This document shows, in pieces, positions 1 through 18,619 of a DNA stretch of 18,619 nucleotides (within the stretch, counting starts at the first letter, position 1; each line of letters opens with the position of its first letter). Source of the DNA: Desulfonatronospira sp. (GTDB taxonomy: Bacteria; Desulfobacterota; Desulfovibrionia; Desulfovibrionales; Desulfonatronovibrionaceae); NCBI GenBank assembly GCA_003563255.1, contig PWSL01000089.1, positions 1 to 18,619 of the forward strand, written 5' to 3'. Under the pieces are notes generated by a model. That model searched no databases. It saw only the letters and a program-made list of their open reading frames with translations, and was not told where the DNA came from. The position numbers were made by a program, and so were the translations under genes.

Positions 1-144
1 AACTTATAAAATATAATTACGTATCTCAATTGGGGACAGGCACCCCCGCACTTATTTTTATTACAAATGATCTTGGTTTTATTGGAAAAAATAAGTGCGG
101 GGAGAGCCAGTCCCCGGAGGTCAGTCATAAGTTTCGCTGTAGTG
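1..144 (+). repeat. Type A palindromic element, left end cut by window
   Basis: The right end TAAGTTTCGCTGTAGTG is at 128-144. The left arm begins mid-way (AACTTATA at 1), so about 11 bases of the matching inverted repeat lie outside the window. Inside, GGGGACAGGCAC (from 33) and GAGCCAGTCCCC (to about 117) bound a core whose halves, GCACTTATTTTT and AAAAATAAGTGC, pair. It has the same layout and orientation as the copies near 10.9 and 12.7 kb. The four bases after the right end are CTAT; the matching left flank cannot be checked here. Confidence 0.85.
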
Positions 145-186
145 CTATTAACAATTAACAAATAACAGATAACAGATAACTGGCTT

Positions 187-10096: not shown

Positions 10097-10112
10097 GCAT
10101 CTATCTCCTGCA

Positions 10113-10251
10113 GTATCTGTTCAGCGCTTTGCATGTGGCACGGGGACTGGCTCTCCCCGCACTTATTTTTAAAATGCTGTCAATCATCCTTCAGAAAAAC
10201 AAGTGCGGGGGTGCCTGTCCCCTGCTTTCCTTAAAAGCGCTAAACAGATAC
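10113..10251. mobile_element. Complete type B element inserted in the TetR leader
   Basis: 139 bp with ends GTATCTGTTCAGCGCTTT (10113 on) and AAAGCGCTAAACAGATAC (to 10251) in inverted orientation, flanked by exact 8-bp direct repeats CTCCTGCA at 10105-10112 and 10252-10259. The core at 10142-10222 reads, on the minus strand, almost base for base like the cores of type A copies at 10976-11052 and 12767-12844. The left duplicate contains the Shine-Dalgarno used by the TetR gene. Confidence 0.9.
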
Positions 10252-10273
10252 CTCCTGCATGTTATATGTATAG

Positions 10274-10302
10274 ATTTTCGAACATTTGTTTTAAACTGTC
10301 AA
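10274..10302 (-). promoter_or_regulatory. Candidate sigma70-type promoter for TetR-MopB unit
   Basis: On the minus strand, TTGACA (10302-10297) is followed after 17 bases by GAAAAT (10279-10274), a perfect -35 with a 4/6 match to TATAAT. Transcription would begin about 15 bases before the type B element, so the whole element and a second copy of the Shine-Dalgarno octamer would be in the 5' leader of the TetR mRNA. Prediction from sequence only. Confidence 0.4.
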
Positions 10303-10358
10303 CCAAAATTGTAAACAATTATGCATCGAGTCGCACTCAGCTCCATTGTAACGTCACT

Positions 10359-10452
10359 ATTCAGGGGGTCCTCGGTGGTTACTACTGGCACCAGGCATGG
10401 GGTCTGTCCCCGGTGGCCGAGGCGATAATTTACACAAAGAGTCGCTGTAGTG
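10359..10452. repeat. Hybrid element: type C left end, type A right end
   Basis: The left end ATTCAGGGGGTCCTCGGTGG (10359 on) and ACTGGCACCAGGC match the type C element at 1.86 kb. The right part, CGATAATTTACACAAAGAG then TCGCTGTAGTG (to 10452), matches, reversed, the left arm of the type A copy at 12067. No target duplication was found, so it may be a recombinant or a ruin. The stretch 10303-10603 otherwise holds only the terminator described below. Confidence 0.6.
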
Positions 10453-10531
10453 CTAATGGAATGCAACCGTCGGTAATAAAAATCTGATTGCCGGTCATGT
10501 ATGCGGGTTCCTGATTGACCGCGGAAAAGTT

Positions 10532-10556
10532 GAGGCCCTCCACGGTGGAGGGCCTC
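10532..10556 (-). terminator. Hairpin terminator of the small lipoprotein gene
   Basis: GAGGCCCTCCA and TGGAGGGCCTC form a perfect 11-bp stem with a CGG loop. On the minus strand it is followed by AACTTTTCC, a short T-run. It lies 48 bases after the lipoprotein stop codon. A second imperfect hairpin (GGGGAAAGCCC with GGGCTCTTCCCC, about 10582-10625) overlaps the end of that gene. Confidence 0.6.
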
Positions 10557-10603
10557 ATAAGCCTGGAGGGGGTTAGCATGAGGGGAAAGCCCGAGGAGCT
10601 TTG

Positions 10604-10789
10604 TTAGAAGCTGGGCTCTTCCCCGGGTTCTCCTTCTTCAGGGGGTAAATATTCATCGGGTGGCGGCTCGCCGTATTCTTCAGGGAGCATAGGCTCTTCC
10701 ATGGGGTCTTCGTGTTCCGGTTCGCAACCCATAGAAAATCCAAGAACCAAAATCAGGGCCAGGGTCATGAGAAAACCTTTATACCACAT
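10604..10789 (-). CDS. Small acidic exported protein, probable lipoprotein
   Basis: 61 residues: a hydrophobic signal sequence (FLMTLALILVLGFSMG) followed by Cys22 with a degenerate lipobox (FSMGC), then a wholly acidic, Pro/Glu/Tyr-rich tail with MLPEEYGEPPPDEY and ending EEPSF. No domain is recognised. ATG 10789 was chosen because AGGAGG ends 8 bases upstream; the ATG at 10795 is only 2 bases from it. The terminal aromatic residue and motif PEEYGE recall the tetraheme cytochrome encoded at 15.0 kb, and the composition recalls the collagen-like protein at 11.7 kb. The hairpin downstream and excellent ribosome site argue that it is a real gene despite its size. Function unknown; probably cell-envelope associated. 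Confidence 0.65.
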   Translation of the reverse strand: MWYKGFLMTLALILVLGFSMGCEPEHEDPMEEPMLPEEYGEPPPDEYLPPEEGEPGEEPSF

Positions 10790-10863
10790 ATACATTACCT
10801 CCTTTGATTTTTCTTAATATTTTCCTTCCAGTCTGTTCATGAGCTCATTTCTGAGCTCATTAT

Positions 10864-11158
10864 CACTACAGCGAAACTTATTAAATATATATTGTACTTC
10901 AAATGGGGACAGGCACTTTTGCCGGTTAATTAGCACTACAGCGAAACTTATAAAACTTTCCAACCGTCAAAATAAGGGACAGGCACCCCCAAACCTTTTT
11001 CTGAAGGATGATTGACAGGTTTTAAAAATAAGTGCGGGGAGAGCCAGTCCCCGGAGGTGAATAAATAAGTTTCGCTGTAGTGTTAGTAATAATTGCTCCA
11101 AAAATTTGGCGGCAAAAGAGCCAGTCCCCGGAGGTCAAACATAAGTTTTGCTGTAATG
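10864..11158. mobile_element. Type A element, interrupted by a second type A element
   Basis: Outer ends CACTACAGCGAAACTTA (10864 on) and ATAAGTTTTGCTGTAATG (to 11158), with direct repeats TTAT at 10860-10863 and 11159-11162. Its core is the GCCG type: GGGGACAGGCACTTTTGCCG at 10905-10924 pairs with CGGCAAAAGAGCCAGTCCCC ending at 11129. The core is split by the intact element at 10934-11082; without it and one TTAG copy, the outer element is about 142 bp, the usual family size. Confidence 0.85.
10934..11082. mobile_element. Type A element nested inside the element at 10864
   Basis: Perfect 17-bp inverted ends CACTACAGCGAAACTTA (10934-10950) and TAAGTTTCGCTGTAGTG (11066-11082), with direct repeats TTAG at 10930-10933 and 11083-11086. 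The core 10976-11052 contains CTGAAGGATGATTGACAG. It is about 95% identical by eye to the copy at 12725-12874, which implies recent movement. Confidence 0.9.
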
Positions 11159-11162
11159 TTAT

Positions 11163-11720
11163 CCATTCTCCAGTTAACAGAAAAACCAGATAAATGATCA
11201 CACTTTCGTTTTTCATGACATGGTTTGAGGAGTCAGTCACGAAAGCGGGATGCGTCCGCAAAGTAAAAGAGATGCATCAGACTATGCAAACACAATGCCG
11301 ACAGCGATGTCTGAAGTGAAAGACAGTGTATTCGTGCTGTTTGGTGTAGAGGGCTTATGTATTTTCCATGGTCTCTGCCTTGCAGCAAGTACACATGTGT
11401 CAAAATGGCCCGGCAGATCAGCCCCTGGCCTGATGTCATGTTTGCAGATTTATTACCGGTCTTTGATTCTTCTGTTAATAACCAGACGGTATCTGTTCAG
11501 CGCTTTTGATGAAACCAGAAAACTTTTTATACCAGATGTGCCTGCAAAAACTCTGGATATTAATCATTCAGAGTCTCTGCGCTGTGTATTTCACAGGGTT
11601 TAACCCGGGAACACTGACTTTTGGCATCTGCCTAAGCGTCCTGCCACGCGCTTCGTGTGATTCGCCTGGTTCGCGTTATAAAATGAGTTTTTGCAGGCGC
11701 ATCAATTGTCGGCGGGTCTG
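11163..11720. other. Stretch without recognised gene; one lone B end
   Basis: No convincing gene is seen here: the open frames (up to 117 codons) lack family resemblance and good ribosome sites. The only repeat is a solitary type B end, GTATCTGTTCAGCGCTTTT at 11489-11507, without a core or partner arm. The stretch lies downstream of the collagen-like gene and upstream of the small lipoprotein gene, both on the minus strand. No clear terminator was found for the former. Confidence 0.5.
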
Positions 11721-12047
11721 TTAAAATTCGAATTCTTCTTCTGGCTCGTCAAAATCGTCCTGCTCAGGCGGCTCATATCTTTCAGGCGGCTGGTACTCAT
11801 CGGGAGCACCCGGCTGTCCCGGCTCGCCCGGCGCACCTGGCTGTCCCGGAGCACCCGGAGCACCTGGAGCACCTGGCTGTTCACCCGGAGCACCTGGCTC
11901 ACCCGGAGCGCCCGGCTGCTCTGTGCCGGGGACTTCAGGCTCGTACGGCTGGTCCCCTTCCATGGCTTGGGCACTGAGCCCGAATCCCGTAATCAGGATA
12001 AATGATAAGACGATACTGGATAATTGCTTGCTGATTTTTCCTGACAT
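11721..12047 (-). CDS. Exported small collagen-like acidic protein
   Basis: 108 residues. The Sec signal peptide (about 1-28, ending SAQA) is followed by a short acidic segment, then a Gly-X-Y run at about residues 46-82 made of GAP, GEP and GQP triplets with a single break (GEQP), and a tail rich in Asp, Glu, Tyr and Pro ending EEEFEF. Collagen-like triplets are known in bacterial surface proteins, where they may form triple helices; here the run is only about 12 triplets, so trimerisation is uncertain. ATG 12047 has AAGGAGG 10 bases upstream. A 32-bp segment carrying this ribosome site and start codon is repeated 163 bases upstream, on the far side of a damaged type A element. Function unknown; likely envelope or secreted. 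Confidence 0.8.
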   Translation of the reverse strand: MSGKISKQLSSIVLSFILITGFGLSAQAMEGDQPYEPEVPGTEQPGAPGEPGAPGEQPGAPGAPGAPGQPGAPGEPGQPGAPDEYQPPERYEPPEQDDFDEPEEEFEF

Positions 12048-12066
12048 CTTAAATAAACCTCCTTAT
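12035..12066. repeat. 32-bp direct repeat, proximal copy (RBS and start of collagen-like gene)
   Basis: Identical to 12198-12229. It contains, on the minus strand, AAGGAGG, the ATG and the first four codons of the collagen-like gene. It ends in TTAT, directly abutting the type A end CACTACAGCG at 12067. Confidence 0.9.
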
Positions 12067-12197
12067 CACTACAGCGATACTTTGTGTAAATTTTCGCCTC
12101 TTACCGGGGACACTTACCGGGGACAGGCACTTTTGCCGACCTCAAACCGTAAAACTGCCGGACTATCCGGCGGCAAAAGAGCCAGTCCCCTTCCAGT
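12067..12197. repeat. Type A element lacking its right arm
   Basis: The left end CACTACAGCGATACTTTG (12067 on) is preceded by TTAT, the usual type A flank. The core runs from GGGGACAGGCAC (12119) to AGAGCCAGTCCCC (12190) with pairing TTTTGCCG and CGGCAAAA, the same core type as the outer element at 10864. The expected right end TAAGTTTCGCTGTAGTG is missing; the 32-bp direct repeat follows instead. The left arm also has a duplicated CTTACCGGGGACA segment (about 12100-12126). Confidence 0.8.
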
Positions 12198-12229
12198 TTT
12201 TTCCTGACATCTTAAATAAACCTCCTTAT
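12198..12229. repeat. 32-bp direct repeat, distal copy
   Basis: Exact copy of 12035-12066. Read on the minus strand it supplies a second ribosome site and ATG (at 12209) that opens a 15-codon frame, MSGKNWKGTGSFAAG, closing inside the type A element. The native promoter of the collagen-like gene should lie beyond this copy. Confidence 0.9.
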
Positions 12230-12287
12230 GTAGATTTCATTATCAGCGGGTTGCTGTTTTCAATTATTTTAGCAACTGCCATGCCAT

Positions 12288-12431
12288 CTGGACAGTCAAG
12301 TGTTATTTAATAATCATTTAACTTCATCAACCTTTTTGATTCTTACGGTCCTTCAGTCCAAACCGGGTATATATCCAAATTAATTATTTTTATTTATTTC
12401 AACCAGGAACCAGGAACTTTGAACTCTCAAG
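12288..12431. repeat. Degenerate long repeat D, copy 1
   Basis: Shares beginning (CTGGACAGTCAA), middle (TATCCAAATT) and end (AACCAGGAACC, then TTGAACTCTCAAG) in the same order and spacing with 18276-18414. Overall similarity by eye is about two thirds. Not palindromic and not coding. Between it and the type A element at 12725 (12432-12720) I see no recognisable gene. Confidence 0.55.
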
Positions 12432-12724
12432 ATGCCATGAAAGGTGAAAAATGAGGCACAACCCGGTGGACAGGGATTGTCTCGATTCTATGGGAACATA
12501 TTCAGACCAGGGAAAAGACCAGGGTGTGCAAATATGGCCTGACGCTGCAGCCGGCTTCGGCAGACAAGGTTGAAAATCCGGACAGGATGTATTACAGGCG
12601 GACTCGAAGATCTAGCAGATGCAAGCCTTGGCGGACCGTAACCGTTCACCGGGCGTCAGTCGTGATCCTATCCAGGCCGGCATCTTAATCCAACTGAATG
12701 TTTACGATGGACCACAATATTTAG

Positions 12725-12874
12725 CACTACAGCGAAACTTATAAAACTTTTCAACCTGTCGAAATTGGGGACAGGCACCCCCAAACCTTTTTCTGAAGGA
12801 TGATTGACAGGTTTTAAAAATAAGTGCGGGGAGAGCCAGTCCCCGGAGGTTAATAAATAAGTTTCGCTGTAGTG
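12725..12874. mobile_element. Complete type A element abutting the S9 peptidase ribosome site
   Basis: Perfect 17-bp inverted ends at 12725-12741 and 12858-12874, with direct repeats TTAG at 12721-12724 and 12875-12878. The core 12767-12844 is nearly identical to those at 10976 and, reversed, 10142. The right end lies 10 bases before AGGAG of the S9 gene, so the element sits in that gene's leader or displaced its promoter. Confidence 0.92.
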
Positions 12875-15662: not shown

Positions 15663-15813
15663 GTATCTGTTGAGCGCTTTTTAGGAAAGCAGGGGACTGG
15701 CAACTCCGGGACCCACTTGAACATCATTTTGTGATCAAAGCGACTCATTTTTTGGGACAAGTGGGTCCCGGAAGAGCCAGTCCCCGTGCGATATGCAAAG
15801 CGCAAAAAGATAC
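15663..15813. mobile_element. Complete type B element with long inner core
   Basis: 151 bp. Ends GTATCTGTTGAGCGCTTTTT (15663 on) and AAAGCGCAAAAAGATAC (to 15813); exact 8-bp direct repeats ACCTGCAA at 15655-15662 and 15814-15821. The core 15692-15785 is of a different type from the copy at 10113: TCCGGGACCCACTTG pairs with CAAGTGGGTCCCGGA around an A/T-rich centre. Confidence 0.92.
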
Positions 15814-15903: not shown

Positions 15904-16055
15904 GTTTCTGTTTAGCGCTTTTTAGGAAAGCAGGGGACAGGCACCTCCGGGACCCACTTGAGCATCATTTTGTGCTCAAAATGACTCGATTTCTGGGACA
16001 AGTGGGTCCCGGAAGAGCCAGTCCCCATGCCACATGCAAAGCGCTAAACAGATAC
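15904..16055. mobile_element. Complete type B element, second copy of the array
   Basis: 152 bp. Left end GTTTCTGTTTAGCGCTTTTT (15904 on), right end AAAGCGCTAAACAGATAC (to 16055). Flanks GTTAGATG (15896-15903) and ATTAGATG (16056-16063) agree at 7 of 8 positions. The core 15933-16026 is the GGGACCCACTTG type, very close to the copy at 15663. Confidence 0.9.
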
Positions 16056-16414: not shown

Positions 16415-16574
16415 GTAACAGTTCAGCCCGTTTTTAGGCAAGCAGGAGACAGGCAACCCCAGGACCTACTTGAGCATCATTTTGTGCTCAAAGCGACTCA
16501 TATTCTGGTACAAGTAGGTCCCGGAAGAGCCAGTCCCCTTCCATCTTAAATTAAGTGTCGCTGGTGAGTGTTAT
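16415..16574. repeat. Decayed element: B-like left end, A-like right end
   Basis: The left part (about 16415-16442, GTTCAGCCCGTTTTTAGGCA) is a diverged B arm. The core (AGGACCTACTTGAGCATC paired with CAAGTAGGTCCCGGA; GTCCCC ends at 16538) is the long B-type core with compensating changes in both arms (CCCACTTG to CCTACTTG, and CAAGTGGG to CAAGTAGG). The right end TTAAGTGTCGCTGGTGAGTG, followed by TTAT, looks like a diverged type A end. Confidence 0.55.
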
Positions 16575-18414: not shown

Positions 18415-18556
18415 TTATAAGTACAACAACCTGTTTACTATTTGCATTGTCAGTCAGCTCAACGGCTATCTTCATGCAGTCTTCGAGCTGAGTATTGCTG
18501 TCTCCTGAACCTGAAATTCGATTGATGTATCTGTTTAGCGCTTTTAAGGAAAGCAT
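18410..18556 (-). pseudogene. Possible truncated ORF running out of a type B arm
   Basis: On the minus strand, ATG 18556 opens inside the type B element (MLSLKALNRY) and continues in frame into unique sequence INRISGSGDSNTQLEDC, then MKIAVELTDNANSKQVVVLIT and a stop, 48 codons in all. The unique part, about 38 codons, has coding-like composition but no family I recognise. It could be the 3' end of a gene interrupted by the element at 18527, or chance. Confidence 0.3.
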
Positions 18557-18619
18557 GGGACAGGCAACTCCGGGACCCACTTGAGCATTTATTTGTGCTC
18601 AAAATGACTCATTTTCTGG
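18527..18619. mobile_element. Type B element, cut by window end
   Basis: Left end GTATCTGTTTAGCGCTTTT (18527 on), AAGGAAAGCA, then GGGACAGGCAACTCCGGGAC and the long B-type core (CCACTTGAGC, GTGCTCAAAATGACTCATTT), matching the copy at 15904. The right half is outside the window. Confidence 0.88.

Follow-up and report, generated by a model that had tools for sequence, protein, structure and literature searches.

Positions 1 to 18,619 of contig PWSL01000089.1, which together make up the window analysed here, come from the Desulfonatronospira sp. assembly GCA_003563255.1 and carry at least ten short palindromic elements, most of them readable as members of two families, A and B, of miniature inverted-repeat transposable elements (MITEs). 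Both families enclose a hairpin cassette, or core, between the same two 12-base boxes, and we argue that cassettes have probably passed between A and B when one element inserted into another and the nest was later trimmed by deletion. Cores are classed as P, G, T, or S; the subtypes A1 and A2 within family A, and B and B2 within family B, differ in their arms. The elements at the centre of the argument are:

10113 to 10251, minus strand: B-ended element with a P-type core, between perfect 8-bp duplications CTCCTGCA at 10105-10112 and 10252-10259
10142 to 10222, minus strand: core of this B element, with boxes at 10142-10153 and 10211-10222 and a hairpin fold (z -8.4)
10864 to 11158, plus strand: outer A1 element with a T-type core, split by a nested A1 element into a left half from 10864 to about 10932 and a right half from about 11083 to 11158, by reading
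10934 to 11082, plus strand: A1 element with a P-type core (10975-11052) and TA flanks, nested at a TA in the T core of the outer A1
12725 to 12874, plus strand: A1 element with a P-type core (12767-12844) and TA on both sides

When reverse-complemented, the B-end core agrees with the A-end cores at 12767-12844 and 10975-11052 in 74/81 and 73/81 columns, and the two A cores agree with each other at 77/78; the near-identity claimed in a preliminary description of this DNA thus holds, with the second A core beginning at 10975 and having A as its first box base. That the arms beyond the core limits are unrelated is equally borne out, as A and B arms give local alignment scores of 5 on the left and 5 on the right (shuffled means 5.4 and 4.5). 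In both families the limits of the cassette are the boxes GGGGACAGGCAC and GAGCCAGTCCCC, which base-pair mutually with A-A mismatches. The host genome (3.52 Mb, 532 contigs) has 755 places matching the left box (34 for a reversed-pattern control), 521 matching the A end, 508 matching the B end, and 322 exact box pairs (0 for each of the last three controls), these genome-wide counts holding up to the mismatches allowed per search. Folded as single-stranded DNA, the B core forms one long hairpin (z -8.4 on the minus strand, -7.3 on the plus strand), and the G and T cores tested give z -7.9 and -5.7; the A cores at 12767-12844 and 10975-11052 reach only -1.7 and -1.3, an effect of changes in their left stem. 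The GGGACCCACTTG cores in B ends and the TTTTGCCG cores in A ends that had been described are both real. The window's other elements are:

1 to 145, plus strand: A1 element with a P-type core of another loop subtype, its left end cut by the contig edge
6749 to 6856, minus strand: one-ended B element with a P-type core, the other flank unrelated
10400 to 10453, minus strand: collapsed box GGGGTCTGTCCCC fused to an A2 left arm, read from the sequence
12067 to 12195, plus strand: A2 left arm with a T-type core (12119-12190), the right end lost
15663 to 15813, plus strand: B element with a G-type core, ACCTGCAA on both sides by eye
15904 to 16055, plus strand: B element with a G-type core, 7/8 target-duplication bases matching
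16415 to 16570, plus strand: chimera of a B2 left arm, a G-type core, and a decayed A2-like right arm in which no closing end was found
18527 to 18619, plus strand: B element with a G-type core, cut by the contig edge

A further repeat, ATTCAGGGGGTCCTCGGTGG...CTGTCCCC, lies at 1851-1910 and 10352-10411 (87% alike) and terminates at a collapsed box; a minus-strand frame at 11721-12047, adjoining the A2 element, encodes a short protein of the collagen-like Gly-X-Y kind (GAPGEPGAPG...) whose start resembles a signal sequence.

Two transposon families and their cores

A and B are different transposons. TA is found on both flanks of 38/43 A units with both ends read, and 31/43 B units lie between 8-bp duplications that differ at one position or not at all (17 exact; mismatched-pair control 0.000). 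With terminal inverted repeats and a TA duplication, A has the features of a TA-target MITE, whereas B, with its 8-bp duplication and repeats starting GTA, has those of an IS66-like MITE, the terminal repeats of IS66 likewise beginning GTA; TA and 8-bp targets are those of IS630/Tc1-like and IS66-like insertion sequences, respectively.

Partner transposases were sought for both families. A was considered as an IS630 MITE served by a resident DDE_3 transposase, but a search confined to that transposase family gave zero DDE_3 matches in the host genome. No transposase-bearing A-ended element was found in the stretches scanned, where six gene-bearing pairs of A ends proved to be overlapping spans between MITEs or around non-transposase genes, and no gene-bearing pair of B ends was found there. 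The single IS66 match in the host genome (467-3234 of locus L307, G000:C430), which has B2 ends and boxes on both sides, was rejected as an autonomous B element because, by reading, this IS66-type insertion sequence has its own repeats GTAACTTCTCAATAGTTCTGGG and its own 8-bp duplication CAAAAACA and is lodged within the loop of a B2/S element.

The association between ends and cores was tabulated in the host and in two relatives, G006 (5 contigs) and G010 (130 contigs), whose stretches were picked because they bear boxes. Host core types were counted in 0.62 Mb of the 3.52 Mb, with overlapping loci counted repeatedly and loci partly picked by box, A-end, and B-end matches; units were deduplicated by sequence before tabulation, and the contingency table is without unresolved-end pairs (own genome 57/138, G006 26/46, G010 15/23) and without two-family chimeras. 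Matched-end A units from the three genomes together have P (27), T (20), PT (1), G (0), and S (0) cores, and matched-end B units P (17), G (24), S (5), and T (0), giving a chi-squared of 52 that none of 5000 permutations equalled. P is the sole type common to A and B, and it is shared mainly through one loop subtype, CTGAAGGATGATTGACAG, with 13 units at 15% distance (B 7, A1 5, A2 1); the other P loop clusters of more than one unit each belong to a single end family (11/11 A1, for example). A tree of P cores (44 rows, 58 columns) requires 8 changes between A and B labels, where 1 would be congruent and 300 label shuffles average 13.3 (minimum 9), bearing in mind that columns are few, many forks are unresolved, and the starred branches force only 2 A/B changes.

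Given the type table, the loop subtypes, and the P-core tree, we conclude that cores and ends lie somewhere between congruence and free mixing. The proposal that ends and cores combine freely was overstated and is rejected, since G and S are confined to B and T to A in matched-end units. What does stand from the preliminary description is that the same core occurs in two kinds of transposon, and that neither end type is tied to a single core type (P and T in A; P, G, and S in B); nor does a simple MITE family of single origin fit the 8 changes in the P-core tree.

Nests, chimeras, and a probable exchange of cassettes

Counting as closed any element with TA/TA flanks or with at least 7/8 target-duplication bases matching, the scanned host sequence yields 61 closed rows: 27 simple A elements, 14 simple B elements, 10 rows with both A and B ends, and 10 A-in-A, B-in-B, degenerate, or collapsed forms. 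The rows with both kinds of end correspond to 7 loci (L009, L043, L050, L051, L059, L102, and L107), and include an A1/T element within a B/G element (L102 8587-8884), an A1 within the P loop of a B (L059 1431-1734), and a B within an A (L043 1298-1595). The window itself has an A-in-A nest at 10864-11158 in which an A1/P element lies inside an A1/T element, and the core previously placed at 10976-11052 is therefore part of a nest.

Partly dismantled forms accompany these intact nests. At 11 places in the scanned host sequence a stub of B runs into an A end, the junction being the TA within B's terminal repeat, and at 3 of these (L042, L047, and L049) the rest of B still lies beyond the A element. 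Units with ends of two families retain an outer target signature in 7/14 cases, namely an 8-bp duplication in L001 (8/8), L043 (8/8), L051 (8/8), and L050 (7/8), and TA/TA in L009, L107, and L015, which is not as expected from a join of two different loci. L015 (1119-1282) combines TA/TA flanks with a core of type G, elsewhere confined to B; its arms are an A1/A2 mix, of which the left scores weakly. A B arm with a T inner segment, or an A arm with a G inner segment, occurs in 14/620 host halves, some with weak classifier scores; clear cases of such foreign combinations include L004, L015, L030, and L043.

We propose, with a probability of about 0.6, that cassettes pass between A and B by nesting followed by deletion at repeated boxes or cores. 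Specifically, i) two mini-transposon families, A with a TA target and B with an 8-bp target, both hold a hairpin cassette between the same 12-base boxes; ii) A would enter B at an internal TA, in many cases the one that B's terminal repeat GTATCTGTTTAGC itself contains, or else B would enter A; iii) the boxes or cores, now direct repeats, would allow slippage at replication or recombination, and the stretch between them would be lost; iv) the outer element would keep its ends and target duplication while acquiring an arm or core of the other family; and v) the first entry of the box into A and B would be a separate, older step, possibly carried out by a Y1 (HUH) transposase. The two families with their target signatures, the intact nests, the half-trimmed chimeras that keep an outer signature, and the junctions at the box where inner types differ are all seen directly; what we infer from them is in which order things happened, that a deletion took place, and that the window's shared core originated along this route.

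Deletion between boxes of the same kind predicts that an arm and its box stay on the same side, left with left and right with right. Such coupling is found for 33/33 A1, 54/57 B, and 22/24 A2 left arms, and for 49/52 A1, 56/67 B, and 17/22 A2 right arms. Deletions running from one direct box to the next would account for the precise cassette limits, for this left/right polarity, and for arms that meet a foreign inner type at the box. An A1 element of G006 (L282) has a collapsed form, GGGGACAGTCCCC, that can be read as a single deletion between CAG repeats. At L112 (8312-8730 of G000:C54), the box-to-box P cassette is repeated four times in tandem, at a spacing of about 103 bp, behind a single B arm.

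We wish to stress that several observations weigh against this proposal. A/B composites make up 0/26 closed elements in the G006 sample and 0/15 in the G010 sample, and G006 has P cores in both A1 (7) and B (4) ends, so that sharing occurs there without intermediates; no full two-sided swap was followed through its steps; 8 of the 11 places with a B stub and an A end lie in loci picked by the A-end pattern, and the frequency of nests is biased upwards because host loci were partly picked by A- and B-end patterns; the 7/14 chimeras lacking a retained signature could be misassemblies in a genome of 532 contigs; and left/right coupling would also be expected if each family had acquired the cassette once.

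Boxes in other genomes and rival explanations

Exact box pairs occur in 5/81 genomes searched, the host included (own genome 322, G010 92, G006 65, G015, of the same family as the host, 30, and G005 4). A wider contig scan gave at least 99 box-pair stretches; among the matches listed most are from Planctomycetota or Geomonas, and six are Desulfonatronovibrio-like. Single left boxes number 262 in Geomonas paludis (G081) and 346 in Rhodopirellula sp. (G082; controls 0 to 4), and only 10 to 18 in some other box-bearing genomes. Boxes with identical precise limits enclose and adjoin different sequences in Planctomycetota, Geomonas, Desulfoscipio, Diplocloster, and others; leaving aside the six Desulfonatronovibrio-like loci, an outer palindrome surrounds 39/96 units from other genomes (5.6% in mismatched pairs), and 37/84 have an inner stem (control 7.5%). 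An empty outer palindrome, sought in one Rhodopirellula genome, appeared at one place, counted on both strands. Two contigs labelled Actinomycetota (T3Sed10_139; L149 and L152) bear the same A1 and B2 elements, and are possibly mis-binned Desulfonatronovibrio-like DNA.

Y1 transposase genes are present in 17/18 genomes reached through box loci. Boxes lie on both sides of a Y1 gene within about 170 bp at L252 and L394, and further out at L266 (about 390 bp) and L381 (about 680 bp). At L394 the sequences GGGGACAGGCGCGCTTAT and ATAAGCGCGCCTGTCCCC, with the motif GGGGWSAS, surround a frame of 230 amino acids, L252 and L266 have box pairs, and the host cassette resembles these by the box alone. The L394 planctomycete gene with its GGGGACAGGCGCGCTTAT terminal repeats (905-1815) is, by reading, itself bracketed by a pair of direct repeats, each about 56 bp long. 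The host's own RAYT genes were rejected as box-flanked genes: full boxes on both sides were found at none of 4 host loci (two cut by contig ends), nor within 450 bp at the 23 examined of 31 G006 RAYT matches, one of which has a B element upstream. On its 5′ side, a RAYT subfamily shared by the host and G006 carries GGGGACAGTCTC; left ends carry GAAGAAGGGGACAGTCTCTTCTT in one subfamily and a shorter GGGACAGAC motif in another. The multi-copy G006 genes at L340-L348 (MPRIARF and MPRNARF subfamilies) have conserved left ends of GAAGAAGGGGACAGTCTCTTCTT or GGGACAGAC, with flanks that are for the most part unrelated, a pattern suggestive of recent movement. No GTAG or CGTC tail, the mark of REP/REPIN units, is constant at the cassette limits, where by reading the boxes start GGGG.

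The preliminary description had suggested that the core is itself mobile and jumps into palindromes, or that gene conversion swaps cores; nested insertion followed by box deletion fits better than either. A mobile core would be a REP- or TIR-like unit placed into palindromes as a single-stranded hairpin by a Y1 (RAYT/TIRYT) transposase and acquired by A and B separately, which we regard as unlikely. The precise limits shared across phyla, the outer palindromes found elsewhere, the few box-flanked Y1 genes, the RAYT subfamily that begins at GGGGACAGTCTC, and box-less B-like palindromes (L098 14019, window 16064, and L281 2324-2374 in G006) are all in its favour, as are the REP dimers inside palindromes and the GGGGWSAS at Y1 terminal repeats reported in PMC3733652. 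Yet box position and polarity are near constant in A1, A2, and B copies; an exact whole-genome search gave no clean empty B site (3 matches, all with box remnants), and neither clean empty A nor B sites were seen in the scanned host sequence, to which the search for empty A sites was confined; no Y1 gene has full boxes on both sides among the examined host and G006 loci; only 3/121 Y1 frames having 300 bp on either side show box-like sites on both, one of them (L383) a poor match; and Y1 genes occur in box-free relatives and in 5/14 control genomes while being absent from box-bearing G005. Boxes that cross phyla, a few box-flanked Y1 genes, and a box start (GGGGACAG) in keeping with GGGGWSAS together suggest that the cassette may at one time have been a unit of Y1 type; nothing in these data shows that it moves in this way today.

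If dispersed copies underwent gene conversion or template switching through the homology of the 12-base box and the P stem, inner segments would be swapped without nesting; this would account for junctions at the box, for inner loops that by reading lie in both orientations within the same stem, and for one loop subtype spread across A1, A2, and B. Twelve bases are short for homologous recombination, however, the A-end junctions in B's terminal repeat fall at TA as insertion predicts, and intact nests exist; with such intermediates at hand, swapping by conversion is possible but improbable. Least probable is that short-read contigs were joined within shared cores: the assembly has 532 contigs, several of which start or end in these repeats, and the less fragmented G006 and G010 samples lack A/B composites, but the shared core type is found in matched-end elements with intact target signatures in both the host and G006, and half of the chimeras retain an outer signature.

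Relation to known systems

It is customary to group MITEs by their ends and to regard each family as what is left of a single parent transposon; in this case the histories of ends and middles are partly separate, and since apparent intermediates are found in one genome, the course of the mosaic process is open to stepwise reconstruction. A 12-base box that crosses phyla and is tied to a few Y1 genes also makes it testable whether REP-like hairpins in palindromes arise by insertion or by nesting and trimming. Tentatively, and with more doubt than belief, we can picture a box-delimited hairpin cassette that was once moved by an HUH Y1 transposase, is found in several bacterial phyla, and has turned into a common module exchanged among unrelated MITEs of the DDE type; three transposition systems would then share and reshuffle one small set of parts.

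The part kinds are known (MITEs, REP-like hairpins, and TIRtron-like repeats); their combination, with apparent intermediates, was not found described in the literature searched. Full-text searches with four box spellings returned unrelated papers only, and, as far as titles and the beginnings of abstracts go, no matching description of nested or mosaic MITEs or of Desulfonatronovibrio repeats was found. Like MITEs of the IS630/Tc1-like and IS66-like groups, the host elements have terminal inverted repeats and target duplications and are short, non-coding, and of high copy number, but the host families share one cassette and have mosaic arms.

PMC3733652 describes REP dimers within palindromes for A. 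variabilis GTAG-15, H. neapolitanus CGTC-1, and T. roseum GTAG-23, empty target palindromes not having been found for A. variabilis and H. neapolitanus, and GGGGWSAS in the terminal repeats of Y1 transposase genes (TIRtrons/TIRYT). As with those dimers, a palindromic unit here lies inside a longer unrelated palindrome, but the host cassette has no GTAG/CGTC tail, and its outer palindromes are two transposons (TA and 8-bp) whose inner types are partly swapped. TIRtrons resemble the host system in that the box start fits their motif and boxes flank a few Geomonas and Planctomycetota Y1 genes, whereas the host has hundreds of boxes, those sampled lying mostly in MITEs, and no examined Y1 gene there is fully box-flanked. 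With REPINs and their RAYTs (PMC3116915, PMC2817692), the cassettes share hairpin-forming inverted boxes and high copy number; the host boxes, however, base-pair mutually instead of making a pair of separate REP hairpins, and their mobility is explained by the outer transposon ends.

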